The position numbers and the translations under genes are program-made. The notes below the pieces were generated by a model. The model was not told the DNA's origin, searched no databases, and was given only the letters and a program-made list of their open reading frames with translations. This document shows, one piece after another, positions 18,811 to 36,510 of a stretch of DNA of 36,510 nucleotides. Every line of letters starts with the position of its first letter. Position 1 is the stretch's first letter. Source of the DNA: an uncultured Opitutia bacterium (GTDB lineage Bacteria; Verrucomicrobiota; Verrucomicrobiia; Opitutales; Opitutaceae); NCBI GenBank assembly GCA_903896015.1, contig CAITWF010000084.1:1-36510 (forward strand), written 5' to 3'.

Positions 18811-21585
18811 TCAAGGCGCGTCCGGCTTCGGCGCCGCTGGCTGGGCCACCGGTGGGTTCGCTCCCCTTCCCCGGCGTCCCCCGGGATTCGCACCAGGAGC
18901 GAGCGGCGGAAATTCCGCGGGCAACTGATCTCCGACCATGCCGAGCATCGTGATCGTCTCGAGTCCGTTTTGCGCGGCGCCGTTCGTGTTGCCCGGGCCT
19001 TCGTCGATGGGATTCAGCGTGGCCGCGCCCTCGACGTGACGCACGTCGCGTCCGCGTCCGCCGCGACCGGTGCCGAGCAGCGCATCGATCCCGGCCTGTT
19101 TGAACGCGGGATTCTTCGTCTCGTGATAAACGTAGGCGGCGAGCCGGCCGTCGCGCACGAACGCGGCGTCCCCTCCCTCGGTGCCGGTCTTCATGTCGCG
19201 CACGATCGTGTCCCGCGGCGCGCTATAGAGGCGGCAGTATTGCAGCCAGAGTTTGTGCCACGTGGGATCGTCGAGCATCTGGTTCAGTTCGAAGACCACT
19301 TCCGCGCCGCCCATGATCGTCGCGAGATTGTAGGTGCCGGGCTCCTCGCTGAGTTGGTAGAGCTTGCCGGTCGCCGGATCGTAGCCGAAGAGGAGATTTT
19401 TTCCGGTGCGCAGGCCGAGCGGCATCGCGTCGAGGCTTTGGACGCCGGCGAGAATCTTGTCGCGCCACTTCGTGTCGCCGGTGCGCTCCCACTCGGTCAT
19501 CCAGTTGCCAAGAAACGCCAGCCAATCGGGCCCGAGGCGCACGCGCGTCGGCGCGATTTTCTTTTCGGCCGCGGTGATGGGCTGCGCGAGGCGCATCGGG
19601 TCAAACTCGATCGTCTTGTAGTCGGCGTTGAGCATTTCGCGCATCACGTCGCCCACGCGCTCGTCGGTCGTGAGGTAATAATAGAAGCGGCGGTAGCCCG
19701 CCTGGCTGATGCGCGCTTCCTTCGCGCCGTCGCCCCAGTGGCGGACGTTGTGACGCGAACCGAGGCCGGCGAAGCGTCCGAGGTGATAGCAATCCACTTC
19801 GCCCGTGTGGCGGGTCATCGCCTCGGCCATCCGAAACACGTCGGCGCGGCCCGAGCGCAGAAAACTATACCAGAGCCACATGTCGGTCCCGAGTTCGGAA
19901 TTGTCCCACGCCATGCCGCCGAGGTCGTAGCGCCACTCGTGGCGGTCCTCGTCGTAGGAATGGCGCACGTCGCCGAAATCCCAGAAGCCATACCAGTGGT
20001 GCTGCTCGGGCTGCGTGAGATAAAAATTCAACGTGGTCGCGAGTCGCTGCTCGATCGCAGCCTTCACGGGCGTCGATTTGTCCTCGAGGCCCCATAGGCC
20101 AAACGCCTGCGCCGACTGCAAATACTGCGGCGTGCAAACCAGCACCGGCGGCGTGGCGCCGACCTGCGCGAACTTCACGGTCTCGTCCTTCGTCGGCACA
20201 CTCGCGGTCGGAAACAGCGTCAACTCGCTCGTGCGCGCGACGCCGGTCGCGGTGCTGAAGCCGGGCTGCACATCCTCGTAAACCGACTCGAGGCCGTGCG
20301 CGTGCGTGTCGTAGTGCCGCAAGTCCATGCCGGGCGCATCGGGCGACCAGAGCCACACCGTCAGCTCCGCCTCGCCGGCGCCGGCGTGTCGCACTTCGAG
20401 CGACGCGGGATACGACTGCCAGAAATTTTTCAAACTGACGCCGAGCCCGCCGCTCACATCGCCAACGAAGACGTGACCCGAGGCGCGTTTGCCGGCGTTG
20501 GCGAAGAGCCACGTGCTGTCGGCATTCGTGCGCTTCAAGATGGTGAAACCATCGGCGTTGGGCTGGACGAGTTTGAAATCCTCCCACACGGCCCAGTCGG
20601 CGAGCAGGCCCTGGCCGCGGGCGTTGAATTGCTCGCGATTCGGCACGCGCTTGCCGCCGAGCTGCGTCGGATAAATGTCCGCGCCGCCATTCGGGTCGGC
20701 GACGAAACGGCCGCCACGCCCGATCATCGGCTGAATTGGCTCGGCCCAGAGGCCGCCGTTTTCGCCGGAGAAACGCACGTGGCGGTTCTGCACCTGTTCG
20801 CGCATCGGCACGCTGAAGACGACACCGAGCCCGCGGATGAAATCGCGGCTTTCGTCGCCGTCGAAGACAAACGTGTGGACCATCCGCGCCGATTCCTGAC
20901 CCGCGTAGAAATACAGCCGCACCGTGAACGGCAGCCACACGCGGTTACCCTTGGTGCCGACGTGCATGCCCTCGATTTTCGCGACCGCGCGCACGGGGCC
21001 GGACTGCTCGAGCGTGACCTTGTCGACGCGCGTGCGGAAAAGTTCGCGCGACGGCGTGTCCGTCGCGTTGCCATCCGGACCGTCCTGCAACACGCACACG
21101 AGCCGGCCGTCGCGCGCGATTTCGCGGCCGTCGACGGTGATGGCGTCGATGAGATTCGAGCCGTGCATGGGGATAACGAAGTTCGCGCGGCCCGTGTCGA
21201 TCGTGTAGGTCGTGTCGCTGCGGCGGATCGAGATTTTCGCACCGTCAGTGGCCGCGGCGCTCGGCGTGGCGGTGAGTTTGAATTCTCCCGTGGTCGACGG
21301 GCCCGCGACGGTCGCGACGCCGCTCCATTTGAGCGATCCGTCCGGCCAAAACGCGAGCGGCCACGTCTGCACCGGCAGCGCCTTGCCGTCGGCGGTCGTG
21401 AGCGCGAAGGCCTGCGATTTTTGCACGGCGCCGCGCGGCCACGGCACGCCGAAACTGACGCCAACCGCGACGGGCGCCGGCGTGCCGCCAAGCCACGTGA
21501 CGGGCACCGGCGACGAGGGTGCGGCGAAACCGACTGCGGCCGACGCGATCACAACGGAGCTGAGTAATTTGAGTTTCAGTTTCAT
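18811..21585 (-). CDS. Secreted PL26/YetA-like exo-rhamnogalacturonan lyase (PcRGLX family)
   Basis: 924 aa from the ATG at 21585, which starts a clear signal peptide (MKLKLKLLSSVVIASAAVGFA); the open frame upstream is Arg-rich and overlaps the next gene. The N-terminal RIFT-barrel signature of the PcRGLX/YetA group is evident: VPVTWLGG, FGVPWPRGAV, LPVQTWPLAFWPDGSLKWSG. A second barrel and an alpha/alpha toroid follow (HWYGFWDFGDVRHSYD, GGMAWDNSELGTDMWLWYSFLRSG, GDTKWRDKILAG), ending in a Gly/Arg/Pro-rich tail (~885-924). PL26 members release unsaturated disaccharides from rhamnogalacturonan ends by beta-elimination; that is the expected reaction. It is last in a tight same-strand group with the 659-aa protein (38-base gap) and GH29. 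Length fits the family. Confidence 0.8.
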   Translation of the reverse strand: MKLKLKLLSSVVIASAAVGFAAPSSPVPVTWLGGTPAPVAVGVSFGVPWPRGAVQKSQAFALTTADGKALPVQTWPLAFWPDGSLKWSGVATVAGPSTTGEFKLTATPSAAATDGAKISIRRSDTTYTIDTGRANFVIPMHGSNLIDAITVDGREIARDGRLVCVLQDGPDGNATDTPSRELFRTRVDKVTLEQSGPVRAVAKIEGMHVGTKGNRVWLPFTVRLYFYAGQESARMVHTFVFDGDESRDFIRGLGVVFSVPMREQVQNRHVRFSGENGGLWAEPIQPMIGRGGRFVADPNGGADIYPTQLGGKRVPNREQFNARGQGLLADWAVWEDFKLVQPNADGFTILKRTNADSTWLFANAGKRASGHVFVGDVSGGLGVSLKNFWQSYPASLEVRHAGAGEAELTVWLWSPDAPGMDLRHYDTHAHGLESVYEDVQPGFSTATGVARTSELTLFPTASVPTKDETVKFAQVGATPPVLVCTPQYLQSAQAFGLWGLEDKSTPVKAAIEQRLATTLNFYLTQPEQHHWYGFWDFGDVRHSYDEDRHEWRYDLGGMAWDNSELGTDMWLWYSFLRSGRADVFRMAEAMTRHTGEVDCYHLGRFAGLGSRHNVRHWGDGAKEARISQAGYRRFYYYLTTDERVGDVMREMLNADYKTIEFDPMRLAQPITAAEKKIAPTRVRLGPDWLAFLGNWMTEWERTGDTKWRDKILAGVQSLDAMPLGLRTGKNLLFGYDPATGKLYQLSEEPGTYNLATIMGGAEVVFELNQMLDDPTWHKLWLQYCRLYSAPRDTIVRDMKTGTEGGDAAFVRDGRLAAYVYHETKNPAFKQAGIDALLGTGRGGRGRDVRHVEGAATLNPIDEGPGNTNGAAQNGLETITMLGMVGDQLPAEFPPLAPGANPGGRRGRGANPPVAQPAAPKPDAP

Positions 21586-21623
21586 GATGGGGCGTGAATT
21601 GGGTTTTGCGTTTCGGCGCGGGC

Positions 21624-23603
21624 TCACGGATTCGGTTTGGTGAAGAGCCGGTCGTAGTCCATCCAGTGCGCGTTCATGAGATCGATCTTGCGCTTGAGCT
21701 GACCGGCGAGGCCGGGACCGAGCCGCATGATCGTCTCCTCGCCGGCGACGGAAGCGAGATCGAGCAGCGGTTCTTTCGTGCTTTGCAGCAGGCGCTGGAG
21801 CCGGGCGGTGTTGTCGATTTCCTTGCGCGCGGTTTCCAGCAAGTCGGTGCGATCCCAACTGCTCTGCACGCCGAGCACGGCGTTGGGCTCGGGTTTGATG
21901 CCGAGCGATTTCACGCGGTCGAGCTGCGCCTGATAGGCGACCATGTGATCGGCGGAGTGCAGCAGGCAGAGTGCGACCTCGAGACGTTTGCCATAGATTT
22001 CCCAGCGCGCTTTCGCCGCCACGTCGGACGCGGCGTCGCGGATGCGGTGGACGTGACCGAGCGCGCTTTCCACGTCGGGGACGACGGTCTCGATCACGCG
22101 TTGGAACAGCAGTCGCGCGCCGTAGCCGTCAAACATGCGCATACCCTGGATATCGATCAGGTTCTCGGCTTGCTCCTCGTCCTTGGCTTGAAAGAGAAAC
22201 GGCCGGTAATAACTTTTGTCCGCGTCGGTGAGCTCGTCGGGAAACGGCATCATCGGGCGATTGATCCAGCGATTCAGCACATGGCCAAATTGGAGCACGC
22301 TGCCAAAATCAAGCGCGTCGAGCCGGCGATCGGCGTCGTCGAGCAGCAACCAGACGGAGAGCAGCGCATCGGCCTGGGCCTCGCCCGCCTCGGTGGCGGC
22401 AAACGCCCGCAGCCCAGCCAGGCGCTCCACCACGCCGCCGCGCGCACTGGCTTGGGTCGCCTCGACGAGCCGGCCGTTGAATTCCAATTCCGCCTCATCC
22501 GGCCGCAGGCTGATCATGCGGCGGGCGACCGCCGGGCTCGCTGTGGTCTCGGGAGTCCGCTCGGCTTGTTCGTTGGCGAGGCGGCGGGCCGATGCCGGGT
22601 CGGCTCCTGTCCGCGTGGCGGCACGTCCCGCGCGCAGCCAGCGGAGATCAGGAACCGCGAGGCCGACGACCGGATAAAACGCCCCGCGCGCATACGCGTC
22701 GCTCGCGCGCAGGCCTTGGAACGCGCGACCGTCCGGACCCTCGCGACCCGACACGGCGACGCCGCGCGGGAGTTTGTGGACGATGGCTTCGAGCGTCTCC
22801 GGCGAGAACGACGGGATCATCCATTGGCGCGGCGCGACGGGGTTGAGGTTGATCTCAACGTCGTGGCCAGTCGCCTTCGCGGCGTCCTTCAACGCGACGA
22901 GGAATCCGAAAATGCGATCCGCCATCGGGCGATCCTTGCAGTCGCTGTGGCCATTGAGTCCGGGGTAGAGCGCGGGCACCCAGCAAAAGCCGGAGCCGGA
23001 ATCCTGCGTGAGAAAACTGAACGTCTCGATCTCTGGGCAGCGCGTGAGCAGATTTTTCATCGCGACCGCGTAGAGGCGCAGCGTCTCCGGCTGGTCGACG
23101 CACATCGAAAAGCGCGCCGTGCGCGAGCGGTTCGGATGATCGACGCGCGGTCCGCGCAACTGCGGGTAAGCGGTGAAGAACGCCTCGGGCATCACTTGCG
23201 GGATGTTCGCGGCCCAGTGCGCCTTCAGGCCGAGCCGACGGAGAATCTTGCAACGCTCCTCGATCAGCGCGGCGACGCGCCGGCCGTAGTTCATGTCGAC
23301 GAACGGTTCGACCTCCGGGGCGGGGAACAGTTTGAAAAAATCCGGCCGCTGGATGAACCACGCCGGATAGGGATCGCCCGGCGGTTGAAACTGCCACTGT
23401 GAAGTCGGCAGTCCGTCGGTGATCGGCACGTGCGTTGCACCGAGCCGTTTCGCGAGCGTGGCCTTCCGCTCGAACGTCGCGAGTTCGGCCGCGTCATTCG
23501 CCGCATCGGCGGAGGAATCGGCGGCGCGTGCGGGCGCGGCGACGGCGAGCCAGGCGAGAATGAGGACGAAACTGGAGACGAAGGGATGGCGGAGATTCTT
23601 CAT
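21624..23603 (-). CDS. Secreted protein of unrecognised family, probably a TIM-barrel hydrolase
   Basis: 659 aa with a signal peptide (hydrophobic 9-27, APARA). I do not recognise a named family. Visible: FVDMNYGRRVAALIEERCKILRRLGLKAHW, FSMCVDQPETLRLYAVAMKNLL, then FSFLTQDSGSGFCW and LYPGLNGHSDC, a layout like the barrel strands of GH67/DUF4838-type glycoside hydrolases, where acidic residues after strands are catalytic. The C-terminal third (~430-650) is helical and charged. It sits between GH29 (43-base gap) and the PL26-like lyase (38-base gap), so it is almost certainly co-transcribed with enzymes for pectin breakdown. Candidate role: a glycosidase or glucuronidase for the same glycan. 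Evidence for this is context plus weak fold resemblance only. Confidence 0.65.
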   Translation of the reverse strand: MKNLRHPFVSSFVLILAWLAVAAPARAADSSADAANDAAELATFERKATLAKRLGATHVPITDGLPTSQWQFQPPGDPYPAWFIQRPDFFKLFPAPEVEPFVDMNYGRRVAALIEERCKILRRLGLKAHWAANIPQVMPEAFFTAYPQLRGPRVDHPNRSRTARFSMCVDQPETLRLYAVAMKNLLTRCPEIETFSFLTQDSGSGFCWVPALYPGLNGHSDCKDRPMADRIFGFLVALKDAAKATGHDVEINLNPVAPRQWMIPSFSPETLEAIVHKLPRGVAVSGREGPDGRAFQGLRASDAYARGAFYPVVGLAVPDLRWLRAGRAATRTGADPASARRLANEQAERTPETTASPAVARRMISLRPDEAELEFNGRLVEATQASARGGVVERLAGLRAFAATEAGEAQADALLSVWLLLDDADRRLDALDFGSVLQFGHVLNRWINRPMMPFPDELTDADKSYYRPFLFQAKDEEQAENLIDIQGMRMFDGYGARLLFQRVIETVVPDVESALGHVHRIRDAASDVAAKARWEIYGKRLEVALCLLHSADHMVAYQAQLDRVKSLGIKPEPNAVLGVQSSWDRTDLLETARKEIDNTARLQRLLQSTKEPLLDLASVAGEETIMRLGPGLAGQLKRKIDLMNAHWMDYDRLFTKPNP

Positions 23604-25572: not shown

Positions 25573-26589
25573 ATGAAATCCCTTTCTTGCCACCTGTTTC
25601 TCATTCTCGCGGCCGTAACGACGGGTTGGGCCGCTGAGCCTGCACCCGCGCCGACTCCTCCGAGCGTCGCACCCGCGCCCGCCGCGCCGCCTGCGGGACG
25701 ACCGGCGCGTCCGCAGGCTCCGGCAGGTGCCGACGACTATGTGCTCGGGCCCGACTCGCGGGTGCAGCCCGGCGTGCCGCAGGGCACGTGGGAAAAATAC
25801 CGCTGGGACAAGAGCGAGATTTTTCCGAACACGGTGCGCGAGGTCTGGCTTTACGTTCCCGCGCAATACGACCCGAAGGTGCCCGCCTGCCTCATGGTCC
25901 TTCAGGACGGCCCGCGCCAATACGCCGCCCGCGAGCGGACCGACGCGGGCAACCGCGCGCGCCAGACGCTCGAATACGCCACACCCAACGTCCTCGACAA
26001 CCTCATCGCGCGGAAAGAGCTGCCGGTAATCATCACTGTCTTCATCAACCCGGGCAGCACGGCGATCGATGCGAACGGCCGGCCGGACTTCGCCAACCGC
26101 AGCGTCGAATACGATTCGGTGGCGGACAACTACTCGCAGTTTATCGCCAAGGAAATTCTCCCGTCCATCGAGGCGAAATACAATCTCCGCAAAGATCCGG
26201 CCGGCCGCGCGATTGGCGGCATCAGTTCGGGCGCGATCTGTGCGTTCACGGTGGCGTGGAATCATCCTGACTGGTTCGGCAAGGTCATCAGCGATGTCGG
26301 CAGCTTCACCAACCTCCGGGGCGGCCACGTCTATCCGCAGCTCATCCGCGAAGCGCCGAAGAAGCCGCTGCGCATTCATCTTCAGGACGGCATCTACGAC
26401 AACCGCTCCCCGCAGGATCCGGAGCGCGATTGGTTTCTCCAAAACCGCCTGATGAGCGAGGCGCTGACGGAGAAACTCTACGATGTGCAATACGTGCTCG
26501 GCCACGGCATCCACAGCAGCAAGCACGGCGGCGCCATCTTTCCGCAGACGCTGCGCTGGATCTGGCGTGACGAGGTGCCGAAGCAGTAG
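25573..26589 (+). CDS. Secreted CE1-like esterase (esterase D / enterochelin-esterase fold)
   Basis: 338 aa with a signal peptide (1-20, GWAAEP) and a Pro/Ala-rich linker (~22-55). The alpha/beta-hydrolase domain (~60-335) has REVWLYVPAQYD, a nucleophile elbow GISSG with S218, PSIEAKYNL ahead of it, and a late YVLGHGIHSSKHGG with H311, H314 or H318 as the catalytic His. This is the PF00756 esterase fold that includes CE1 feruloyl and acetyl esterases. Expected role: removing ester groups from plant polysaccharides so that the neighbouring glycosidases and lyases can act. It is transcribed alone, divergent from GH29 and convergent with the DUF1552 gene. Substrate cannot be read from sequence. 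Confidence 0.8.
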   Translation: MKSLSCHLFLILAAVTTGWAAEPAPAPTPPSVAPAPAAPPAGRPARPQAPAGADDYVLGPDSRVQPGVPQGTWEKYRWDKSEIFPNTVREVWLYVPAQYDPKVPACLMVLQDGPRQYAARERTDAGNRARQTLEYATPNVLDNLIARKELPVIITVFINPGSTAIDANGRPDFANRSVEYDSVADNYSQFIAKEILPSIEAKYNLRKDPAGRAIGGISSGAICAFTVAWNHPDWFGKVISDVGSFTNLRGGHVYPQLIREAPKKPLRIHLQDGIYDNRSPQDPERDWFLQNRLMSEALTEKLYDVQYVLGHGIHSSKHGGAIFPQTLRWIWRDEVPKQ

Positions 26590-26617
26590 AGCCCGGTCGT
26601 CCACGCTTGGTCGGGCT
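26590..26617. terminator. Shared terminator hairpin between convergent genes
   Basis: AGCCCG (26590-26595) and CGGGCT (26612-26617) form a stem with a 16-base loop in the 27-base gap between the stops of the esterase (+) and the DUF1552 gene (-); its right arm reaches the latter's stop codon. Likely works in both directions. Confidence 0.55.
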
Positions 26618-27972
26618 TACGCGATCACGTCGAGTTTGCCGGTGCTGTCGGCGAAGCGCGGGACCGGCGCGCCCATGCGGTCGAGGAGTGAGGTGTAGAG
26701 ATTCGTCATCGGCGTCTCGTGGTCCATCTTGATGTGGCGGCCGGGCGTGAGTGTGCCGCCGCCGCGACCAGCGAGGATCGTGGGGAGGTTGTCGTGCAGG
26801 TGCTCGTTTGGGTCGCTGATGCCGGCGCCGTAGACGATCATGCAGTTGTCGAGCAGCGTGCCGTTGCCCTCCTTCACGGACTTCAGCTTGTCGAGGAAGT
26901 AGCCGAATTGCGTGAGATGCCAGCGGTCGATCTTCGCGAGCTTGTCGAGCGCGTCGGGATTGTTGCGGTGGTGCGAGGTCGAGTGGTGGCCGGCGTTGAC
27001 GCCCGCAAAGGGATAGGGGCGGTTGCCGCCGTCGTGCGAGACGAGGAAGCTCGCGATGCGCGTGCTGTCGGTCTGGAACGAGAGCGTCATGATGTCGAAC
27101 ATCAGGCGCATGTGGCGCTCGAATGTATAATCGGCGTCAAAGTCACCGACGGCGCCCGCGGGCACGGGCGGCGGCATACGGCCGTTTTGCTCGATGCGTT
27201 TTTCCACGTCACGGATCGCGGTGAGATATTCGTCGAGTTTCTGGCGGTCGTTCTTGCCGAGATTTTTCTGAAGTCGATTCGTCTGGTCGAGCACGAGATC
27301 AAGGATGCTCTTGCTCTGGCGCTCGCGGCGAAGGCGCGCCTCGCGCGATTCGTCGGAGGAGCCGGCGCCGAACAGGCGGTCAAACGCAGCCTTCGGCTCG
27401 ATCTCGGGATTCATCGGCTGCGTCTCGGAGCGCCACGAGATGTTGAACTGGTAGGCGCAACTGTAGCCGGAGTCGCAGGAGCCGGCTTCCTGGCCGCGGT
27501 CGCAGCTCAACTCGAGCGACGGGAAGCGCGTCTGGTCGCCGATCGCCTTGGCGGCGACCTGGTCGACGGAGATGCCAATGTGCACGTCCGACGCGGATTT
27601 TTTCGCCTGGCAACCGGTCAAGTAAGTCGCCGATGAGCGCGCGTGATCGCCGCCGCCGTCACCGTTGCCGAAGGCCTTCCGGTGCGCGAGGCCGCTGAGG
27701 ACGCTGAAGTCGGCCTGGTGCGCGGCGAGCGGCGCGAGTGTTTCGGAGAGCGCGTAGTCCGTGCCGACGCCGGTGGGCGCCCACTTGGCCATGTTCATGC
27801 CGTTTGGCACATACACGAAGGCCATGCGCTTTGGCGCCGCGCTCGTGGCGGCGTCGGCGGTCGTGGCGCCCAGCGCGCGCAGCGGCAGCATCGAATCGAG
27901 GATGGGCAGGGCGATTGCGGTGCCAACACCGCGGAGAAACGTGCGACGGGGGATTTGCCAGCTTTTGCTCAT
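26617..27972 (-). CDS. DUF1552 (HXXSHH-motif) secreted protein
   Basis: 451 aa from the ATG at 27972, chosen for its Tat-type signal (QIPRRTFLRGVGTAIALPIL). The body matches DUF1552: KRMAFVYVPNGMNM, LSGLAHRKAFGNGDGGGDHARSSATYLTG, FPSLELSCD, and the signature HHSTSHH before RNNP. The family is common in Planctomycetota and Verrucomicrobiota and is usually encoded next to a DUF1592-type cytochrome protein, as here. The fold resembles alkaline-phosphatase-superfamily DUF1501/sulfatase-like proteins and the His cluster may bind metal, but no reaction is established. Third gene of the operon after the alpha/beta hydrolase (68-base gap) and the DUF1592 protein. Confidence 0.9.
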   Translation of the reverse strand: MSKSWQIPRRTFLRGVGTAIALPILDSMLPLRALGATTADAATSAAPKRMAFVYVPNGMNMAKWAPTGVGTDYALSETLAPLAAHQADFSVLSGLAHRKAFGNGDGGGDHARSSATYLTGCQAKKSASDVHIGISVDQVAAKAIGDQTRFPSLELSCDRGQEAGSCDSGYSCAYQFNISWRSETQPMNPEIEPKAAFDRLFGAGSSDESREARLRRERQSKSILDLVLDQTNRLQKNLGKNDRQKLDEYLTAIRDVEKRIEQNGRMPPPVPAGAVGDFDADYTFERHMRLMFDIMTLSFQTDSTRIASFLVSHDGGNRPYPFAGVNAGHHSTSHHRNNPDALDKLAKIDRWHLTQFGYFLDKLKSVKEGNGTLLDNCMIVYGAGISDPNEHLHDNLPTILAGRGGGTLTPGRHIKMDHETPMTNLYTSLLDRMGAPVPRFADSTGKLDVIA

Positions 27973-28040
27973 GGGAATGATGGGGGAATGAAAACGCGAC
28001 GCGGGGAAAATCGGGGAACGGCGAATGGCGGCGAGTGTGG

Positions 28041-30062
28041 TTACATTTTTGCCGCAGGCAAACGCCACGCTTCGTCGAACACGCCCTCGGCGGCGGTCTC
28101 GGCGGCGATCGAGCCATCGGCCTGCTTGGAAACTTTCAGGATCGCGTAGTCGCCATAGGCGGTCGCGCCGCGGGCGGCGACGAGGCCGCTGTTGATGACG
28201 ACGTAGCGCTGCGGATTAAGCGGATTTGGATAGATCAGGACCGGCATGTGCTCGGCAGCGCTGTAGGTTTTGTCGCCGACGACAATGCTGTCCTTGGTCC
28301 ACTTGATCGGAAGCCGGGCGGCGATTTTTGCGATGAGCGTATTGCTGCCGGGGTCGCCGAAGAGCACGAGATTGTTGGCGGCGATGTCGGCGTCAGTGAT
28401 CGCGGTATCGTCCTTCGCACGGGCTTCGCCGAGAAATTCGCGGGTGAACATCTTCGCGAAACGATCCTGCTCCTGCTTCGCGCGTTCGCCGGCGATGGCG
28501 TGGTTGGGCGTGCCGGTGGGGTTGACGCAGAGGAAGGACTCAAAGAACGCGTCGCTGAGCGGACCCTGGAGATTGTGCTGTTTGCGCAAGCCGGTGTTCG
28601 CGGCCGGGTTCGCGGTCTGCCAGTGACCGCCGTTGCGGACGAGGAGGAGTGTGGTGGCGGGTTTGACGTTCAGCGTGTCGCCGTCGATCGCGATCGTGCG
28701 AGCGGCGGTCGTGTCGGAGACGATCAGGCGCGAGACGTTGGCGGTCTTGATCGTGTAGGCGGATTTCGCGGCGTCGCGCTCGGCGTCCACGGTGCCACGC
28801 TCGAAGTGCTGTTGCAGGCCGTCGACCGTGATCCAGTGACTGTGATTGTAGCGGGTCGTGTAGGTGACGAACTTGATGTGGTCAGGCACGACGCGGCCGC
28901 GCGTGAAGTTGGCGGCGGCGAACTCGTCGATCTGTTTTTCGGTGTCGCCGGTCGCATGGGAGTGGCCCTGACCGGGATTCGCGAGAAAGAGGGCGTTGAT
29001 GTCCTTCCCGGTGTAGCGAAACGGGCCGGTCTTCTCAATGGTGTAGCCCTCGCGGACGAGTTGTTCGCGGATGCTCGTGGAGGAGGCGAGCTGGGCGTCG
29101 TTTTCGCCGGCGTAGCCGACAAGCGGGATGTTAAAAACGTTCAGCGCGTGGTCGACGAGGATGCCGTAGCCGGCGTTAACGGCTTTTTGAGCCGGGGAAA
29201 GGTCGTTGAGGTTCAGGCGATTGCCGATGACCCCAGCGTCGATTTCGAGCCCGCAGAAAAGGTCGGAGTTGTGCAGACCTATCTGCCACGAACCGGCGCC
29301 GCCCATGGAAAAGCCGGCGAGGAGGATGCGGTTGGGGTCGATGTTGTAACGTTTGCTGACCGACGCGATGACCTCGAAGACGTCGGTCTCGCCGGCCCAG
29401 CGGAAAGAGTTGTTGCCGCGGCCGAAGGCATTCACCCGAATGCAATCCACTGCGCGGCTAGCGCCGCCTCGGGGCGCATTTTCGCGGTCGGCGCCGCCGA
29501 CCTGACCCCACGCGAGATCGGGATTGGCCGGATTGCTGCCGGGCGTGCTGCGGCCGTGCAGATAGAGATAGAGCGGCATCGGCTTCGCCGGGTCGTAGGA
29601 CGCGGGAATCGAAACCGTGTAGGGCTGCGCGGTGCCGTCGACCTGCGAGCGATAGGCGCGCTTGATGGAGCCCTTGAGCTTCGGCCACGCGGCGGTGCCG
29701 GCCTTGATCTGGCTGGCGCGGCGGAGCGCGTCGTCGCCGGCGGCGATAAGTCCGGGGAGCGTGCCGTCAGTCACGAAGCCATCGGGCACGCGGAGCGTGT
29801 TGTGGATGACCCATGCAGTCGCCTCGACATCGACGATCAGATCGTCGTCGAATTTTGCGTCCTTGAGCGACTGGATCGTGGCGTTGAGTTCGTCGAATTT
29901 TGCGCGGAGCTTGGCAACGTCCTCGGGCTTCGGTGTGACGGGCGAGCGCGGCGGAGCGGCTTTTTTCGCGCCCGCGGCGGCCGGAATTCCCTCGTCGGAC
30001 GGAGCGGGCATCTGGGCAAACGCGACGCCAACGAGGGCGAGGACGAGGAGAAGGCTCTTCAT
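28041..30062 (-). CDS. Large secreted alpha/beta hydrolase (prolyl-oligopeptidase/esterase type)
   Basis: 673 aa with a signal peptide (1-16, GVAFAQ). After a helical N-terminal part (~45-150) comes an alpha/beta-hydrolase core: YTVSIPASYDPAKPMPLYLYLHGR, RVNAFGRGNNSFRW, nucleophile elbow GFSMGG with S252, and VGYAGENDAQ supplying a likely Asp. A catalytic His is probably in the GQGHSHATGD segment. A second half (~400-673) is beta-rich and may be an additional binding domain. The enzyme is probably a peptidase or carbohydrate esterase acting in the periplasm. It starts 10 bases after the DUF1592 gene and precedes DUF1552, so all three are co-transcribed; a hydrolase between these two is notable. 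Specificity unknown. Confidence 0.75.
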   Translation of the reverse strand: MKSLLLVLALVGVAFAQMPAPSDEGIPAAAGAKKAAPPRSPVTPKPEDVAKLRAKFDELNATIQSLKDAKFDDDLIVDVEATAWVIHNTLRVPDGFVTDGTLPGLIAAGDDALRRASQIKAGTAAWPKLKGSIKRAYRSQVDGTAQPYTVSIPASYDPAKPMPLYLYLHGRSTPGSNPANPDLAWGQVGGADRENAPRGGASRAVDCIRVNAFGRGNNSFRWAGETDVFEVIASVSKRYNIDPNRILLAGFSMGGAGSWQIGLHNSDLFCGLEIDAGVIGNRLNLNDLSPAQKAVNAGYGILVDHALNVFNIPLVGYAGENDAQLASSTSIREQLVREGYTIEKTGPFRYTGKDINALFLANPGQGHSHATGDTEKQIDEFAAANFTRGRVVPDHIKFVTYTTRYNHSHWITVDGLQQHFERGTVDAERDAAKSAYTIKTANVSRLIVSDTTAARTIAIDGDTLNVKPATTLLLVRNGGHWQTANPAANTGLRKQHNLQGPLSDAFFESFLCVNPTGTPNHAIAGERAKQEQDRFAKMFTREFLGEARAKDDTAITDADIAANNLVLFGDPGSNTLIAKIAARLPIKWTKDSIVVGDKTYSAAEHMPVLIYPNPLNPQRYVVINSGLVAARGATAYGDYAILKVSKQADGSIAAETAAEGVFDEAWRLPAAKM

Positions 30063-30072
30063 CGGGCGGGGA

Positions 30073-32994
30073 TTAACGCGAAGCCACGGATTCGCCGGCC
30101 TCGGTGCGCTGCTGGTCGAACGGCACGCTCTTCGCGACGGCGAGCACGAGCGCGGAAAAACGAAACTGGCCGGCGGTCATTTCCTGCACGATGCGGTCGA
30201 TCGCGGGCCGGTCGGAGCGCTCTACGCCGCGGCCAAGTGAGTAGATTAGTATTTTTTCGGCGAGATTGCGCAGGAAATTGTCGCGGCGCTTATCGGAGAG
30301 AATCGCGGAAAGCTCGGCGGCAGTGGCGAACGATTCGCCGGTGCTGAGCTTGCCGGCGGCGTCGACGGGAAACTCGCCGTCCTTCGTGCGGAACGCGCCG
30401 ATCGCATCGAAATTTTCCAGCCCGAAACCGATCGGGTCCATGCGGGCGTGACACGAGGCGCAGGTCGGATTCGCACGATGCTGCTCCATCTGATGACGCA
30501 GGGTGCCGGTGACGGACTTGCCGTCGTTCGGGAGGTCGGGGACGTTCGGCGGCGGCGGCGGGGGTGGCGTGCCGAGCAAATCCTCGAGCACCCACTTGCC
30601 GCGTTTCACGGGCGAGGTGCGGGTGGGGTTCGAGGTGATCGTGAGCACGCTGGCCTGCGTGAGCACGCCGCGGCGCGGGGTGTTGGCGAGCGAAACCTCG
30701 CGGAGTTCGTCGCCGGTCACGCCGGGCAGGCCGTAGTGTTTCGCGAGGCGCTCGTTCACAAACGTGTAATCGGCCGTCAGAAATTCCAGCACGCTGCGGT
30801 CCTGCTGCATGATGTGCGCGAAGAACGCCTCGGTCTCGTCGCGCATCGCCGTGCGCAAGCCATCGTCGAAATCCGGGAAAAGTTTTTTGTCGGGCTCGAC
30901 GTATTTCAGGTTGCGGATCTCAAGCCACTGGCCGGCGAAATTCGTGACGAGCGCGCGCGCCTTCGGCGACGCGAGCATCCGGCGCACCTGTGCTTCGAGG
31001 TTTTTCCGCAGCGCGCCGCGGCCCGCGAGATCGAAGAGCTCCTCGTCGGGCATGCTGCTCCACAGGAAATACGAGAGCCGCGACGCGAGCGCGAACTCGC
31101 CCACGGGCCGCGCGCGCGCCGTCGTCGACGCGATCGCGCCGGTCGGAATCTCGCCCCGGAAAAGGAAATGCGGAGAAACGAGCACGGCTTGCAGCGCGAC
31201 CTTCACGCCACCGTCGAACGATTCCCCGTCGGCGCGCGTGGCGGTGTAGAGCTTCAGGAGTTCGTCGACCTCACCGGGTTCGACCGGGCGCCGCCATGCG
31301 CGGCGCGCGAATTCCCCCACGATCAGGCGCGCTTGTGTTTCCTGGATCGGCGCGGGCGCGGGGCGTCCGGTCATGCGCGCGAAAAATCCGCCGAGGCCCG
31401 TCTGCGGCGGCGGAGTGGCGGCCGCGGCGAAGAGCCGGTCCATTGCCTCGATCCGCTGCGGCACCGGTGCCGGCTCGTTGAGGCTGGCGACTTCGAGGTG
31501 CTGGATGAAAAGATTCCGGTCGCGCAGATTTGGATTCTTGTTTTCCGGGTCGGCGAAATCGTTCACGTAGGCGGCGGCGAAGCGGTATTCGCCGGCGGCA
31601 ATTTTAGTCCGAAACTCGTAGACCTGCGGCACCGGCTCGAGGAGCAGCGGCGAAAATACGCGCTGGCCCGACGTCGCGATGACGCGGCCTGGCGCGCGCA
31701 CGTCGAACGTCGTGAGGGCCTTGCCCGCGAGGCGGAATTCCATGCGCGCGGGCTCGTTGCCGGCCTGCGTGGAGTAGGCTTTCGCGCGCAGCATGTATTC
31801 GCCGTCGGCGGGGACCACGAGCTTCAGCGCGACTTCGCCTTCGCGGTCCAGGAGCCGCGTGCCGTCGGGCAGGAACCGACCGTCGCCGGTCACCTCAAGT
31901 TGCTTCGCGGCGTAGCGGCGCGTGGCGGTGGGCAGCGGGCCTTCGAGTTCGACGGTCTTGACCCAAACGGTGCCACCCTGCACGGGGCCGACGCGACCAT
32001 TCTTAATATCGAGTTCATTGACGCCCCCACGCACGCGGCGATTGGCAATGCCGAGCCGGTGCCGGCCGGCGGGAATGCTGATGCGCATCTCGAAGCCCTC
32101 CGGTTTCGCCTCGGGCGCGGCGACTTTCCATTCGCCGATCACCGTGTCGTCGACCATCACGGAGGCCATGATGGGCACTTCGGAGAGCGGCTTGTTGGAC
32201 GAGCCGTATTTCCCCTTGGGCGAGGCCCAGGCCTGCATGCGCAGGATGTAGTCGCCGGCGGCAAAATTCGTCGTGGTGGAAACGGCGTCCTCCTCCAGCG
32301 CACCGAGCGGCATCCAGCCGTCGCCGCGGTCCCCCTCGGCGTTGAAGCCGACGGCCATCAGGTTGGCGCGAAATTTCTGGAGGCGCGTGTGCGGAATCTC
32401 CGTCGGTATCGCCTCGCCGGTGATGCGGCGCGCAGCGGTGAGGTATTTTTCGAGCAACACCGGCGGCAGTGAGAGCACGTCACTGATGTTGTCGAAGCCG
32501 TAGCCGGAATTATCGGCCGGGAAATCGTCGGCGGCCTGAAAATCCACGCCGAGGAGATCGCGGATGGTGTTATTGTATTCGTTGCGGTTCAGCCGGTGAA
32601 TTGTGACGCGGCCCGGGTCGGGATTCGCCGGATCGATGCGAAACAACTCGCGCTCGATCCAACCGCTGATCGCGTCGCGCTCGGCGGCGGAGGGCTGCGC
32701 GTCGGCATCGTCGGGCGGCATCTCCTGTGAGCGCACGCGATCCATCACGGTCTCCCATTTTTTCGCGGCTTGGTGAACCTCGGCGAGCGTCTGCTCGCGA
32801 TCGAGCATTACATCTCCCTTGTGTTTCCCGTCGCCGTGACACTCGTAGCAATACTTCTGGAGGAGCGGCGTGACGGTTTTCTCAAACTTGGCGTCAGCGG
32901 CCGGCGTCGGCGCTGCGAGCGCGGCAGCGGCAGCAGCGAGCGAGCCGACCACAAGGAGGCACGGAGCAATCCGGGCGGGTTGAAATTTGGGCAT
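30073..32994 (-). CDS. DUF1592-family planctomycete-type c-type cytochrome protein
   Basis: 973 aa from the ATG at 32994, which begins a signal peptide (LLVVGSLAAAAAALAAP). Order of domains: PSCyt1-like heme segment with C49-YE-C52-H53; DUF1587 (LNRNEYNNTIRDLLGVD, GYGFDN, LEKYLTAA); a carbohydrate-binding-like beta-sandwich (~200-480); DUF1595 (FARRAWRRPVEPGEVDELL); DUF1592 (ALQAVLVSPHFLFRGEI, LSYFLWSSMPDEEL); DUF1588 (RRGVLTQASVLTITSNPTRT, C845-AS-C848-H849, MDPIGFGLENFDAIG); DUF1585 (NFLRNLAEKILIYSLGRG). Two CXXCH sites mean it can carry covalent heme. Such proteins are widespread in Planctomycetota/Verrucomicrobiota; redox function outside the cytoplasm is expected but undefined. First gene of the operon with the hydrolase and DUF1552. 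Confidence 0.9.
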   Translation of the reverse strand: MPKFQPARIAPCLLVVGSLAAAAAALAAPTPAADAKFEKTVTPLLQKYCYECHGDGKHKGDVMLDREQTLAEVHQAAKKWETVMDRVRSQEMPPDDADAQPSAAERDAISGWIERELFRIDPANPDPGRVTIHRLNRNEYNNTIRDLLGVDFQAADDFPADNSGYGFDNISDVLSLPPVLLEKYLTAARRITGEAIPTEIPHTRLQKFRANLMAVGFNAEGDRGDGWMPLGALEEDAVSTTTNFAAGDYILRMQAWASPKGKYGSSNKPLSEVPIMASVMVDDTVIGEWKVAAPEAKPEGFEMRISIPAGRHRLGIANRRVRGGVNELDIKNGRVGPVQGGTVWVKTVELEGPLPTATRRYAAKQLEVTGDGRFLPDGTRLLDREGEVALKLVVPADGEYMLRAKAYSTQAGNEPARMEFRLAGKALTTFDVRAPGRVIATSGQRVFSPLLLEPVPQVYEFRTKIAAGEYRFAAAYVNDFADPENKNPNLRDRNLFIQHLEVASLNEPAPVPQRIEAMDRLFAAAATPPPQTGLGGFFARMTGRPAPAPIQETQARLIVGEFARRAWRRPVEPGEVDELLKLYTATRADGESFDGGVKVALQAVLVSPHFLFRGEIPTGAIASTTARARPVGEFALASRLSYFLWSSMPDEELFDLAGRGALRKNLEAQVRRMLASPKARALVTNFAGQWLEIRNLKYVEPDKKLFPDFDDGLRTAMRDETEAFFAHIMQQDRSVLEFLTADYTFVNERLAKHYGLPGVTGDELREVSLANTPRRGVLTQASVLTITSNPTRTSPVKRGKWVLEDLLGTPPPPPPPNVPDLPNDGKSVTGTLRHQMEQHRANPTCASCHARMDPIGFGLENFDAIGAFRTKDGEFPVDAAGKLSTGESFATAAELSAILSDKRRDNFLRNLAEKILIYSLGRGVERSDRPAIDRIVQEMTAGQFRFSALVLAVAKSVPFDQQRTEAGESVASR

Positions 32995-33152
32995 GAGGCA
33001 GCGGGGAACTTCCATCATCGAGGGCGGGGAACTACGCAGAGTAGAATAACGAACGACGGACACCAAGGTTCTAACCTATTTGCGGCCTAAAATTCTGACA
33101 GTGGGAAGGCGGGTGGGCTTGCCAAAAGGTTCCGAGCTCGGAATCTCGCCGC

Positions 33153-34625
33153 GTGGATTTTTTGATAACCTCCCGCCGCTGGTTCCGTCGGTTCTGCCGC
33201 GTCGCGGCTGGCGCGTCGCTCGGCCTCGCGCTCGTGGGCGCTGGTGGGTCGGCTAGAGCGCAGACGGTCGCGGCGGATCGGGCGGCGGCGGACGAAGCGA
33301 TGGCGAAAGGCGATTTTGCCGTGGCGCTCGTCTGGACGGCGGAGGCATTGAAACGAGATTCGAAGGATTCGCTGCTGCGGTGGCGGGCGGGCAACTTGAT
33401 CCGGCAGATTCCACTGCGGCAAGCGGCGGCGAAAACCGCCGGCGAAGACGAGGCGCCGCCCAACCGGGCGCTGCTTCGGACGATGACGCACGACAACTCC
33501 GTCGAGGACGCGGTATTCAGTCCCAACGGCCGCGCGATCGCGACCGCGAGTTGGGATCGCACGGCGCGCGTGTGGAGCACGCAGACAGGTGCGCCGCTCA
33601 CACCATCGCTGTCGTATCCCGAGCAAGTGCAATCCGTCGTGTTTAGCCCCGACGGTCGCTCGGTCATCGCGACGAGCTACGGCAGCCCAGCTCACGTCTG
33701 GGAGGCCGCGACCGGGAAATTGCTCCCGCCCGAACTCGCGCAGGATCATGTGCGCTCAGCGGCATTCAGCCCGGACGGGAAAATCATCGCGACCGCGAGC
33801 AACGACGGCACGGCACGCCTCTGGGATGCGGCGAGCGGAAAATCGCTCGCGCCACCCCTGAGGCACGCAGGCGCGGTGGTCAGCGTGACGTTCAGCCCCG
33901 ACGGGCGGCGCGTGCTGACGGCGAGCTCCGATAACACCGCGCGGGTCTGGGATGTCACGACGGGCCAGCCGGCGACCCCGCCGCTCCACCATGATTTTTG
34001 GGTGAACAGCGCCGCCTTCAGTCCCGACGGAAAGTCGGTCGTCACTGCGAGTCAGGACAAGTCCGCCCGCGTCTGGTCGGCCGCGACCGGCCAGACGCTC
34101 ACGCCGCTGCTCGCGCACGACGATGCCGTGAACTTCGCGGCGTTCAGTCCCGATGGCCGGGTCGTCGTCACCGGGGGCAACGATGCGACCGCGCGACTCT
34201 GGGATACCGCCACGGGACGCGCCCTCACGCCGCCGCTGACGCACGACGATGCAGTGGTCCACGCGGCGTTCAGCCCGGACGGAAAAATCGTGGCGACAGC
34301 GAGCGACGACTACTCCGCCCGATTGTGGGACGTCGCGACCGGTCGGCTGCTCGCGCCGCCGCTACGCCACGCGCTGAATGTGCGGCACGTTGCGTTCAGT
34401 CCCGACAGCCGATTGCTGCTGACCGCGTGTTGGGACAAAGCCGCCCGGGTGTGGGATATTTCGCCGATCGATTGGCCGGTGGAGGACATCGCGACGTTTG
34501 GAGCGATCGCCTCGGCAGCGCGCGTGGCGCAGGGTTCTGCGCTGGAGCCGCTGAGCCGCGCCGAAGTCGACGGCTTGACGAAACCGTTCCGACTGCGGCA
34601 CCCGGAGTTGTTCGTGGCACCGTAA
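33153..34625 (+). CDS. Secreted eight-repeat WD40 beta-propeller protein
   Basis: 490 aa from a GTG at 33153; the start begins a signal peptide or anchor (RRWFRRFCRVAAGASLGLALVGAGGSARA). A short helical part (~40-85, resembling a TPR-like pair) precedes eight WD40 blades of about 42 residues (~112-447), each with AFSPDGR/K..., TAS.D.[TS]AR[VL]WD and a conserved ATG...L.PPL turn. Blades are so alike that the DNA shows a ~126-base period. Eight blades would make a closed propeller used for protein binding. It is divergent from the DUF1592 operon and followed by a second DUF1592-type gene, so it may scaffold that system. No catalytic residues seen. Confidence 0.85.
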   Translation: MDFLITSRRWFRRFCRVAAGASLGLALVGAGGSARAQTVAADRAAADEAMAKGDFAVALVWTAEALKRDSKDSLLRWRAGNLIRQIPLRQAAAKTAGEDEAPPNRALLRTMTHDNSVEDAVFSPNGRAIATASWDRTARVWSTQTGAPLTPSLSYPEQVQSVVFSPDGRSVIATSYGSPAHVWEAATGKLLPPELAQDHVRSAAFSPDGKIIATASNDGTARLWDAASGKSLAPPLRHAGAVVSVTFSPDGRRVLTASSDNTARVWDVTTGQPATPPLHHDFWVNSAAFSPDGKSVVTASQDKSARVWSAATGQTLTPLLAHDDAVNFAAFSPDGRVVVTGGNDATARLWDTATGRALTPPLTHDDAVVHAAFSPDGKIVATASDDYSARLWDVATGRLLAPPLRHALNVRHVAFSPDSRLLLTACWDKAARVWDISPIDWPVEDIATFGAIASAARVAQGSALEPLSRAEVDGLTKPFRLRHPELFVAP

Positions 34626-34650
34626 CCCAAAACGGACTGTCAGCTAAGAT

Positions 34651-34676
34651 CCGGCCGCTCGTGGCCGGGGGTTTTC
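34651..34676 (+). terminator. Intrinsic terminator after the WD40 gene
   Basis: CCGGCC (34651-34656) pairs with GGCCGG (34663-34668) across a 6-base loop; G-rich bases then TTTTCTT follow. It lies 26 bases after the WD40 stop and fits a Rho-independent terminator. Confidence 0.6.
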
Positions 34677-34785
34677 TTGTTCCGCGACCGCGCCGCTGCA
34701 ACGATTGACCCGGCGGCTCGTCATCCCCTTCGAGTCTAGGATTCGTTCCAACCCTTCCCCACTGCTCCTGATGAGATTTACCGTC

Positions 34786-36048
34786 ATGAACGCGCGCGCC
34801 CTGCGTTGGCCGGGACGTCCGTTTTTACTGCTCGGCGTTTGCCTGATTCTCGCCGCGTGCTTCAACCCCGCAACCGCGCCGCAGGCCGCGCAAAAAAGTG
34901 CAGCGCCAAAAACTCCGGCGAAAGTGGCGCTGACGGTTGCGGCGAAGCCCGCGAACCCGTGGGAGGACTTTCATCGAAACGTGCAGCCGTTCCTGGCGAA
35001 GCATTGCTACGAGTGCCATGGCGACGAAAACGCGGAAAACGGTTTTCGACTCGACGTAATTAGCGACGCGGCCTCGCTGGACGAAGGGGGCAAATCGCTG
35101 GAGATGGCGCTCAAGAATCTTTCGATCCACAAGATGCCGCCGAAGACCGAGCCCCAGCCGGAAGAGGCCGAGCGGGCGAAGATCGTCGGCTGGTTGAAAA
35201 CGTATCTCGCCGGCGACCCGACCGGCCCGATCAATCCTGGCCGTGTGACCCTGCGCCGCCTCAACCGCGCGGAATACAACAACACGATCCGCGACCTGCT
35301 CGCGATCGACATCCGGCCGGCCGACGTCTTTCCGGTCGACGACGCCGGCTACGGCTTCGACAACAACGGCGATGTGCTCTCGCTCGCGCCGGTGTTGATG
35401 GAAAAATACCTCACCGCGGCCGGACTCGCCGTCGACAAGGCGATCCACTGCGACCCGATCGTGCCGCCGCCGCTGAAACGCTGGGACGCATCGATCGTCG
35501 ACGGTTCGATCCCGAAGGGCGATCCGATGGCGGTCGCGCCCCTGACGCCCCCCAGCGCGCCCGAGCCGCCGCCTGGTGTCGCGCCCCGCCGCACCATGCT
35601 GCTCGGCCGGCTCTTCAAATTTAACGGCGAGATTTATGCCGACTACGAGCTGCCCGCCGACGGCGACTATGTGCTGCGCGTCCGCGCTTACGGCACGCAG
35701 GGCTCGGAGAACAGGCAGCGTCCGTCGGTGGAATTTGCGGTCGACGGCGTGCCCGCCGGAAAGCCGCTCACGATCAAGGAAGATCAGCGCAACACGTCGG
35801 TCTATGCGCTCGAAAAAACTAAACTGACGGCCGGCAAACACCGCATCGCCCTCGCGCTGGTCAACGGCTCCACACCGGAGGAAGCCGCTGAGTATGCGCG
35901 CAAGACACCGCCGCCAAAAATTAAGACCGAGGCCGAGATCGCCGCCGAGGAAGCCGCTGCGGTTGCGGCGGAAAACGCCGCCGAAGCCGCCGCGGCCGCA
36001 GCGCTTGCGGCCGCGGCAAAGCCGCCGGCTGCTGACGGCGCCGCTCCC
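34786..36048 (+). CDS. Second DUF1592-type cytochrome lipoprotein, 3' part missing
   Basis: About 420 residues of genuine sequence from the ATG at 34786 (ATG 34771 is an alternative). A lipoprotein signal is clear: hydrophobic segment then LILAAC with C25. Heme site C74-YE-C77-H78, DUF1587 (LNRAEYNNTIRDLLAID, GYGFDNNGDVLSL, LMEKYLTAAG), then a carbohydrate-binding-like sandwich (YADYELPADGDYVLRVRAYG, KLTAGKHRIALALVNG) and an Ala/Glu-rich stretch (~385-410). After ~36050 the frame stays open to 36501 but encodes only the antisense of pcaG, so the DUF1595/1592/1588/1585 parts are missing. It resembles 30073-32994 in layout but is a diverged paralogue. Truncation is by rearrangement or misassembly. 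Confidence 0.8.
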
Positions 36049-36444
36049 GCCGTCGGCGCCGGTCGCGGACCGGCCGACGCCGACGAAGCCGGGGTCCAGC
36101 GGCAGGTCCCCGCGCGGATCGTCAGGGCTGGCGTAGCGGCCGCTCGCATTGGCCTGCCAGATCTCGATCATGGCGTCGGGGATGGCCGCGCCGTCGCCGT
36201 CCAGCACGCGGCCGATGATCTCGATCACCTCGCCGGCCACCGCGCCGCGCGGGCCGCTGACGTTGAGCAAATCGTGTTCGGGCGGGAACAGGTCCGGGCG
36301 GGCGCCCATGTCCGCGTGGCCCACCAGGTCGGCGCCGCCTTTCCAGGGCAGGGCGTAATGGAAGAACGGCCCCACTGTCTGCCAGGGGGTCTGGCCGAAG
36401 ATCTCCGGGCTCTGATTGTCGAGGCTTCGGCTGTCGGCGATCAC
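36049..36444 (-). CDS. pcaG: Protocatechuate 3,4-dioxygenase alpha subunit, 3' truncated
   Basis: About 132 recognisable residues from a GTG at 36444. Motifs: GQTPWQTVGPFFHYALPW near the start, EVIEIIGRVLDGDGAAIPDAMIEIWQANASGRY in part, and DPGFVGVGRSATGADG where family members continue with an F-R-F strand; here the sequence turns into unrelated Gly/Ser residues at ~36049. Full PcaG is about 200 aa, so the last third is lost. PcaG and PcaH form the intradiol dioxygenase that opens protocatechuate to carboxymuconate; the iron ligands sit in PcaH. The GTG overlaps the pcaH stop by four bases (GTGA), a normal pcaHG arrangement. Proteobacterial in style and unrelated to the neighbours. Confidence 0.85.
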
Positions 36445-36510
36445 GGGCGAGTCTCCATGGGCGTGGCGTCGCGGCCGCGCAGGACCAGGTCGAACAGATA
36501 GCCCAGCGCC
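36441..36510 (-). CDS. pcaH: Protocatechuate 3,4-dioxygenase beta subunit, C-terminal end only
   Basis: The last 22 residues are visible (ALGYLFDLVLRGRDATPMET and two more), ending at a TGA (36441-36443) that overlaps the pcaG start. F-D-[LI]-V-L-R-G-R-x-A-T-P is the characteristic PcaH C-terminus. The rest lies beyond the window edge. Confidence 0.75.
   Translation of the reverse strand, partial: ALGYLFDLVLRGRDATPMETRP

Follow-up and report, generated by a model that had tools for sequence, protein, structure and literature searches.

Esterase and pectin gene neighbours of a branch of di-heme-motif DUF1592 proteins paired with DUF1552 in the Opitutaceae: a possible exported redox and de-esterification module

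What is the task of the DUF1592 proteins, with their two heme motifs, and of the DUF1552 proteins encoded beside them, and why should one such pair, with the gene of an esterase-like hydrolase in between, lie next to genes for pectin degradation? The question is raised by a contig of 36,510 nucleotides (CAITWF010000084.1, here C84) from an uncultured Opitutia bacterium of the Opitutaceae; the whole contig was analysed and is referred to below as the window, and the host genome amounts to 4.96 Mb in 123 contigs and is 97.9% complete. An initial annotation of the window had proposed an extracytoplasmic redox system attacking polysaccharide or its esters. The answer suggested by the present analysis is narrower: siting beside esterase and pectin genes is supported, as judged from gene neighbourhoods, for one branch of DUF1592 and not for the families, and the block may represent, at a probability that we put at about 0.45, an exported module that would combine redox chemistry and de-esterification in the use of pectin-derived glycans.

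The block is encoded on the minus strand in the right part of the window and consists of DUF1592a (30073..32994), a 673-residue alpha/beta-hydrolase (28041..30062) and DUF1552a (26617..27972). The three genes are co-directional, with 10 bp between DUF1592a and the hydrolase and, as calculated from the coordinates with DUF1552a starting at 27972, 68 bp between the hydrolase and DUF1552a; they diverge from a plus-strand WD40 gene, which is followed by the start of a second DUF1592 gene (DUF1592b). The start of the exported-looking DUF1592a, the ATG of MPKFQ, was picked by eye within a mechanical open reading frame extending to 33066, whereas the mechanical frame of DUF1552a, which displays a twin-arginine translocation (Tat)-like N-terminus (RRTFLRG), extends to 28068; this signal, like all secretion and lipoprotein calls reported here, was judged by eye. 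The left part of the window is a pectin/rhamnogalacturonan cluster comprising a GH28-GH106 enzyme, a GH2 pair, an FG-GAP/RGL11-like protein, a PcRGLX lyase, a GH29 enzyme and a two-component system.

Pfam matches and structure comparison indicate that DUF1592a has the domain order PSCyt1 - PSD3 - two sandwiches resembling carbohydrate-binding modules (CBMs) of families 35/36 - PSD5 - PSD4 - PSCyt3 - PSD2, with CxxCH motifs at residues 49 and 845. By this order and its two heme motifs it is a PSCyt3-type DUF1592 protein, predicted to bind heme, and cytochrome c assembly genes are present. Two CxxCH motifs are present in all of 47 aligned DUF1592 proteins, and in all 47 the first is followed by MPP or MPQ, whose Met is a candidate heme ligand that would suit electron transfer. 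The AlphaFold model of DUF1592a (mean predicted local distance difference test score, pLDDT, 84.9) contains both sandwiches. In structure comparisons (VIA) the second of them (model residues 330-480) matches the XynJ xylanase domain with Z 16.4 (1.8 Å over 115 residues), a CBM36 with Z 16.1 (2.1 Å over 119 residues) and both CBM35 and CBM6 with Z 14.8, the CBM35 match being an entry solved with delta-4,5-anhydrogalacturonic acid, while the first (residues 175-327) matches a GH26-CBM35 entry with Z 13.1 (2.4 Å over 118 residues). Among the PDB sequence matches to PSCyt1 (5 and 35) none is recognisable as an X183 chain, and PDB sequence searches with the heme core and with DUF1552 returned cytochrome-like or chance matches only.

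DUF1552a (Pfam E 8.8e-108) carries HSTSHH. Among 50 DUF1552 sequences HHxxxHH is found in all and HxxSHH in 43, and five His are invariant, a feature unusual for sulfatases. The DUF1552a model (pLDDT 85.2) matches sulfatases and nucleotide phosphodiesterases (VIA; best Z 17.6, 4.0 Å, 275 residues), with a Foldseek E of 9.4e-5 and a TM score of about 0.4, so that a sulfatase/alkaline-phosphatase fold, common to that whole superfamily, is predicted for DUF1552. The S1 sulfatase signature, [CS]-x-P-x-R-x4-[TS]-G, is, on the other hand, absent from all 50 sequences, which have the His-rich motif instead. The 673-residue hydrolase has no Pfam match; its PDB sequence matches (LC-Est1C, E 4.2e-14; esterase 3doh, 4.2e-6; 8daj, 4.4e-6) and the GxSxG motif, with the Ser in GFSMG, relate it to CE1/feruloyl-type esterases, and esterase activity is predicted. 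The families, motifs and gene order on which the initial annotation had built its operon, namely a heme protein with two CXXCH sites, a serine hydrolase and an HXXSHH protein divergent from the WD40 gene, were thus borne out.

The DUF1592-DUF1552 pairing extends far beyond the window. In the host genome the seven PSD4 and the seven HXXSHH matches are paired by place without exception, the esterase being the single gene between the partners in the window. A same-strand DUF1552 gene lies within 2.5 kb of 74 of 78 DUF1592 genes in loci fetched from the same family, a set that includes some fragments and, because the stretches L147 and L194 overlap, one gene that enters the count twice. The corresponding figure is 55 of 78 DUF1592 genes at 76 named loci from several phyla (the best 80 of 532 matches, minus four duplicates), the remaining 23 being in part at contig ends and in part genes without such a neighbour. 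Within the family PSD4 was found in 43 of 100 sampled genomes, with up to 21 DUF1592 copies per genome. In one genus (L118-L139; genomes G043, G068 and G087) DUF1552 stands upstream in 14 DUF1592 genes, reversing the usual order.

What sets the window apart is the third gene. When 157 DUF1592 genes, including one that came from a control region, were scored against DUF1592a, a same-strand alpha/beta-hydrolase of esterase type was present within 2.5 kb in 16 of the 17 genes reaching at least 1000 bits and in 6 of the 140 others, and 15 of the 16 linked esterases lie within 28 bp. The four nearest loci (the window, its near-copy on contig L026 and two of one other genus) have the 673-residue type after DUF1592, and the hydrolase occupies the equivalent place in L026, L029 and L030; the other loci with a linked esterase have a shorter one, mostly before DUF1592. 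A quick tree of 88 proteins joins these 17 with L042 and L144 in one branch of 19 (SH-aLRT support 89). Between PSD3 and PSD5 this branch has a longer insert, with a median of 381 residues (16 measurable proteins) against 195 residues in the other DUF1592 proteins (58 measurable), as expected for a doubled sandwich such as that modelled in the window protein.

The same branch tends to be sited at pectin loci. In a first count a pectin-type gene (CE12-like genes included) lay within 10 kb in 11 of 13 DUF1592 genes of at least 1050 bits, in 5 of 126 below this score and in none of 30 control regions of at least 15 kb. Because the queries of this count came largely from the window and from branch loci, a Pfam tally of the neighbours within 8 kb was made. 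Among 139 proteins from 18 branch loci it yielded 15 BD-FAE (the linked esterases included), 11 PL22-like, 8 GDSL, 3 GH3 and 2 GH88 proteins and at least one each of RGL11, GH10 and GH29, the PL22-like proteins resembling oligogalacturonate lyases and the GDSL proteins being of acylhydrolase type. Among 142 proteins from the other loci (17 taken at random from those of at least 15 kb, 16 of them yielding proteins), BD-FAE, PL22-like and GDSL are not among the 25 families listed, while GFO/IDH, ankyrin and DUF1501 are, along with 3 PF00756 esterases and 2 sulfatases; since each tally gives 25 families, those with one or two members may be hidden, and L110 of the other set has a PL22-like gene. 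Twenty further loci, hand-picked and some of them with PL22 or GH28 matches nearby that were known beforehand, contained seven genes of at least 1000 bits, three of them copies of loci already counted. Pectin genes accompany L193 (GH88, PL22-like) and L192 (RGL11, a SASA esterase); L195, a copy of L045, has GH78 and a weak pectate-lyase match, and L198 a glucuronyl esterase and GH127.

The initial annotation had envisaged a link of these families with loci of carbohydrate-active enzymes, and this expectation stands for the branch, with its esterases, PL22-like and GDSL proteins, and fails for the families at large. In 24 genomes, using 139 of 253 DUF1592 places (137 listed and two own loci), 13 of 57 PL22-like genes lay no more than 10 kb from a DUF1592 gene, at most 2.0 being expected. 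The expectation is rough, since an SDR control (best 150 matches) was itself enriched 2.6-fold (10 versus 3.9 expected within 10 kb), and PL22 tested against SDR gives p 0.002. A general association was found for PL22-like genes and was not found for GH28 (2 of 131, 3.7 expected) or for BD-FAE (4 of the best 150, 4.1 expected); the counts exclude second pieces of one frame, one among 58 PL22 rows and two among 133 GH28 rows. A clustering of neighbours, from which four loci duplicated in its first version were taken out, gives modest enrichments: p 0.014 for BD-FAE-like, 0.007 for PL22-like, 0.13 for the CE1-type cluster and 0.10 for CE12-like genes. Ankyrin-repeat proteins (e.g., L125, 12636-14126) occur near DUF1592 genes at 11 loci and in none of 33 control regions.

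The failure of the genome-wide test for GH28 and BD-FAE is one of several points that weigh against a dedicated pectin module. With L042 and L144 included, the esterase count becomes 16 of 19; a GH10 xylanase adjoins L144, at L042 GH29 is the sole family found among those sought and DUF1552 is missing, L199 is a branch member without a glycan gene nearby, and L026 is too short for its pectin siting to be judged. The branch members are related, so that the counts are not independent and the p-values are overstated, and since the window and loci related to it supplied the esterase queries, dissimilar esterases elsewhere may have escaped. The sole genome of the same genus (G024) has a single match to DUF1592 and none to the esterase, even though the FG-GAP gene region of the window is present there at 89%. 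Scores of Z 12.5 to 13.4 are reached by Cry-toxin sandwiches too, so that the fold alone is no proof of sugar binding, and no oxidoreductase active site was identified. Finally, in the accessible passages of He et al. (2017; PMC5615132) the coding densities of PSCyt and GH domains are negatively correlated (r = -0.62).

Those passages also bear on novelty. They describe such domain sets in Verrucomicrobia, with CBMs in some, and suggest a role in carbohydrate use; they further describe PSCyt3-type proteins with a neighbour gene of unknown family, as well as sulfatase neighbours. The domain set is common to the proteins considered here, in which the pairing with DUF1552 was tested. The unknown neighbour family, which the earlier passages leave unnamed, is presumably DUF1552. 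What would be new with respect to He et al. is the longer CBM35/36-like insert, the same-strand esterase and the pectin siting of the window branch. The sulfatase neighbours, in contrast, are not enriched here, with 22 genes in 1.31 Mb near DUF1592 versus 25 in 0.60 Mb of control sequence.

The closest known counterpart is Cbp2D of Cellvibrio japonicus, which, according to the parts available of Branch et al. (2021; PMC8981238), has the domains CBM2, X158, X183, DUF1587 and X132. Its X183 cytochrome slowly passes electrons in vitro to lytic polysaccharide monooxygenases (LPMOs) of family AA10, and loss of cbp2D leads to slower growth on cellulose (PMC8981238, PMC12542752, as far as accessible), the passages of the latter regarding the LPMO partner role as unproven in vivo. 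DUF1592a shares with Cbp2D the DUF1587 domain, two CxxCH domains and a CBM, the last by fold only, and X183 and X132 would, from domain order, correspond to PSCyt1 and to PSD4-PSCyt3-PSD2, respectively; Cbp2D is linked to polysaccharide use, as the window block, sited at pectin genes, would also be. DUF1592a differs in the type of CBM, in having no YceI-like domain among its Pfam matches, in its DUF1552 and esterase partners and in the absence of AA10 from the genomes searched. In the available text of PMC10916295 (2024), two Teredinibacter proteins, TERTU_2913 and TERTU_3803, join a Cip1-like X122 with X183 and X132, with no activity found, and the X183 domains did not feed the LPMO of that organism. 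Here a Cip1-like protein adjoins the second DUF1592-DUF1552 pair as a separate gene, whereas in Teredinibacter the parts are fused. A table on a straw-degrading community includes a Cellvibrio CBM2-DUF1592 protein (PMC6004670, in the part seen). The statement of the initial annotation that polysaccharide attack is not described for these families was therefore mistaken, given the carbohydrate role suggested in PMC5615132 and the treatment of CBM-cytochrome proteins as polysaccharide redox proteins in the accessible passages of PMC8981238, PMC10916295 and PMC12542752; on the other hand, the open-licence literature yielded no paper on DUF1592 together with DUF1552 and no named function for DUF1592 proteins.

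How could the three proteins work together? The starting points are the domains, the heme motifs, the predicted folds, the conserved grouping of esterase, DUF1592 and DUF1552, and the pectin siting in much of the branch; from these we infer a substrate, catalysis by DUF1592 and DUF1552, metal binding, a direction of electron flow, a physical complex and a location in the envelope. The two CBM35/36-like modules would anchor DUF1592a to a glycan that bears uronic acid, acyl or methyl groups would be stripped by the neighbouring esterase, and DUF1552, as a metal-binding protein of sulfatase/alkaline-phosphatase fold with a Tat-like signal, would act on the same, now exposed sugar. As the released sugar or oligosaccharide is oxidised, its electrons would pass to the PSCyt3 heme, from there to the His/Met-type PSCyt1 heme and finally to the respiratory chain, so that the module would carry out a redox attack on pectin or its esters. 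Electron uptake is favoured over the feeding of an LPMO because AA10 was found in none of 9 genomes, the host genome included, a search that did not cover other LPMO families. A more specific and rather improbable version holds that DUF1552 is itself an oxidoreductase on an alkaline-phosphatase fold, whose HHxxSHH motif and C-terminal His/Asp would bind a redox metal and oxidise the ester-freed galacturonic/rhamnogalacturonic fragment, delivering the electrons to the CBM-anchored di-heme DUF1592; if true, DUF1552-DUF1592 would be a new class of glycan dehydrogenase, its substrate exposed by the block's own esterase.

Electrons could instead be handed by DUF1592 to an LPMO-like copper monooxygenase for cleavage of the polysaccharide, the role proposed for Cbp2D; the slow feeding of AA10 by its X183, the growth defect of the mutant and the common DUF1587 speak in favour of this, and yet the lack of AA10 in the nine genomes (other LPMO families lying outside that search) and the failure of the Teredinibacter X183 domains to feed an LPMO make it very doubtful. 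Could DUF1552 simply be a hydrolase of phosphatase, sulfatase or esterase type, the cytochrome being only a carrier or a respiratory protein with no glycan redox chemistry? The predicted fold is typical of hydrolases and the adjoining genes are esterases, but the sulfatase signature is missing from all 50 sequences, the five His are invariant in them, and the retention of both heme motifs in all 47 partners would need explaining, so that this possibility is considered unlikely.

Unlikely to a somewhat greater degree is a general exported electron-transfer or stress protein of the Planctomycetes-Verrucomicrobia-Chlamydiae (PVC) bacteria that stands beside pectin genes by chance: this would agree with the 23 named-locus DUF1592 genes lacking a DUF1552 gene within 2.5 kb, some of them at contig ends, with the absence of a genome-wide link to GH28 and with a DUF1552 gene that, in the available part of PMC2754498, appears in a Rhodopirellula transcriptome table with the remark "regulatory mechanism", whereas the neighbour content of the branch and its longer insert argue against it. 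As for a glycan-binding sensor or scaffold, in which the hemes would serve to detect oxygen or the redox state and a surface assembly would be built from the WD40 and CBM parts, WD40 genes do accompany lipoprotein-type DUF1592 genes; Pfam, however, finds no signalling domain in these proteins and the candidate Met ligand suits electron transfer, and we regard this as the most improbable of the explanations. The exported redox and de-esterification module thus remains the reading adopted here, tentatively.

The second DUF1592 gene is cut at the end of the contig. Positions 27392-36065 of the window align to contig L026 at 94.7%, the blastn alignment ending at 36065; L026 8718-12627 aligns in inverted orientation, at 89.4%, to contig C94 of the host genome, and 58 bases separate the two aligned parts. 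The last 445 bases of the window (36066..36510) encode on the minus strand a fragment of a dioxygenase (PF00775, E 3.1e-9, matched by the frame 36055-36510; protocatechuate type by eye), outside the locus proper, and a genome search with 36040-36510 returned the self match and no second copy; the final 114 bases of C94 (L001 14209-14322) are likewise without a match in L026. We take both ends to be chimeric assembly tails at a GC-rich stretch. DUF1592b (34705..36065, plus strand; mechanical frame to 36501), with a lipoprotein-like N-terminus by eye, is therefore incomplete in the window, with a single CxxCH visible, a PSD3 match and a PSCyt1 match marginally below cut-off (21.9 versus 22 bits). 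The initial annotation was right in recognising a second DUF1592 gene, here only its 5' part, broken at 36065 by the chimeric tail, and of the sandwiches that it had assigned to both proteins those of DUF1592a, the protein modelled, were found.

The remainder of DUF1592b and a second DUF1552 gene (DUF1552b, L001 11414-12811, outside the window) lie on C94. In L026 the order is intact: DUF1552a, hydrolase and DUF1592a on the minus strand, WD40, DUF1592b and DUF1552b on the plus strand, and a Cip1-like gene on the other strand. Given this order and the contig breaks, the locus is read as two back-to-back units with DUF1592 and DUF1552 in each. The intact DUF1592b homologue (L026 7308-10121) has 937 residues and two CxxCH; the Cip1-like protein (281 residues, PF21340, E 2.9e-8; L026 11594-12439) has a homologue at the matching place on C94 (L001 10467-11309). 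The idea that L026 represents an independent second genus was rejected, since its identity to the window is 94.7% and its G+C content that of the window (0.643), as against 0.666 and 0.676 in two other stretches of the genome with which it is binned (G022, as contig C19) and an identity of 73-80% between the comparable C11/C94 loci. A binning error or a recent transfer is the probable cause, and L026 is used in this analysis solely as a near-copy in intact form.

The WD40 protein (33153..34625, plus strand, Pfam) has a TPR-like N-terminal part by eye, and its homologues adjoin DUF1592 genes in L026, L031, L151 and L194. WD40 genes stand beside lipoprotein-type DUF1592 genes in the window, in L026 and in genomes of two other genus labels, which suggests a second conserved unit. 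Convergent with DUF1552a is a 338-residue esterase (25573..26589, plus strand, PF00756), whose homologues adjoin DUF1552 in L029 (532 bits) and L004 (279 bits) and of which one also occurs in control region L184 (224 bits). In genomes G016 and G055 the block has this convergent esterase and a GH28 gene nearby, but the rest of the window's pectin cluster has its matches elsewhere in these genomes. Within the cluster, the GH28-GH106 enzyme (268..4806, minus strand, profile matches) is a two-domain protein in one frame of 1512 residues, and a GH28 match within a 1476-residue frame is also present in G022 (C15). The PcRGLX-type rhamnogalacturonan lyase (18811..21858, minus strand; PF21346, E 4.4e-156) also belongs to it; between it and the GH29 gene an exported-looking protein of 659 residues without a Pfam match is encoded at 21624-23603. 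A plus-strand frame at 8846-10030, also without a Pfam match, overlaps the start of a histidine kinase frame on the opposite strand and ends in a C-terminus that by eye resembles that of a TonB-dependent receptor; it may be another break or a remnant.

For the DUF1592 family, the existence of a branch whose gene order ties it to esterases and pectin genes offers a candidate substrate class, and the block defines a minimal gene set to test, esterase, DUF1592 and DUF1552, consisting of few proteins. Furthermore, it connects the cytochromes of the PVC bacteria with the CBM-cytochrome proteins of cellulose degraders, a Cip1-like partner being common to both.

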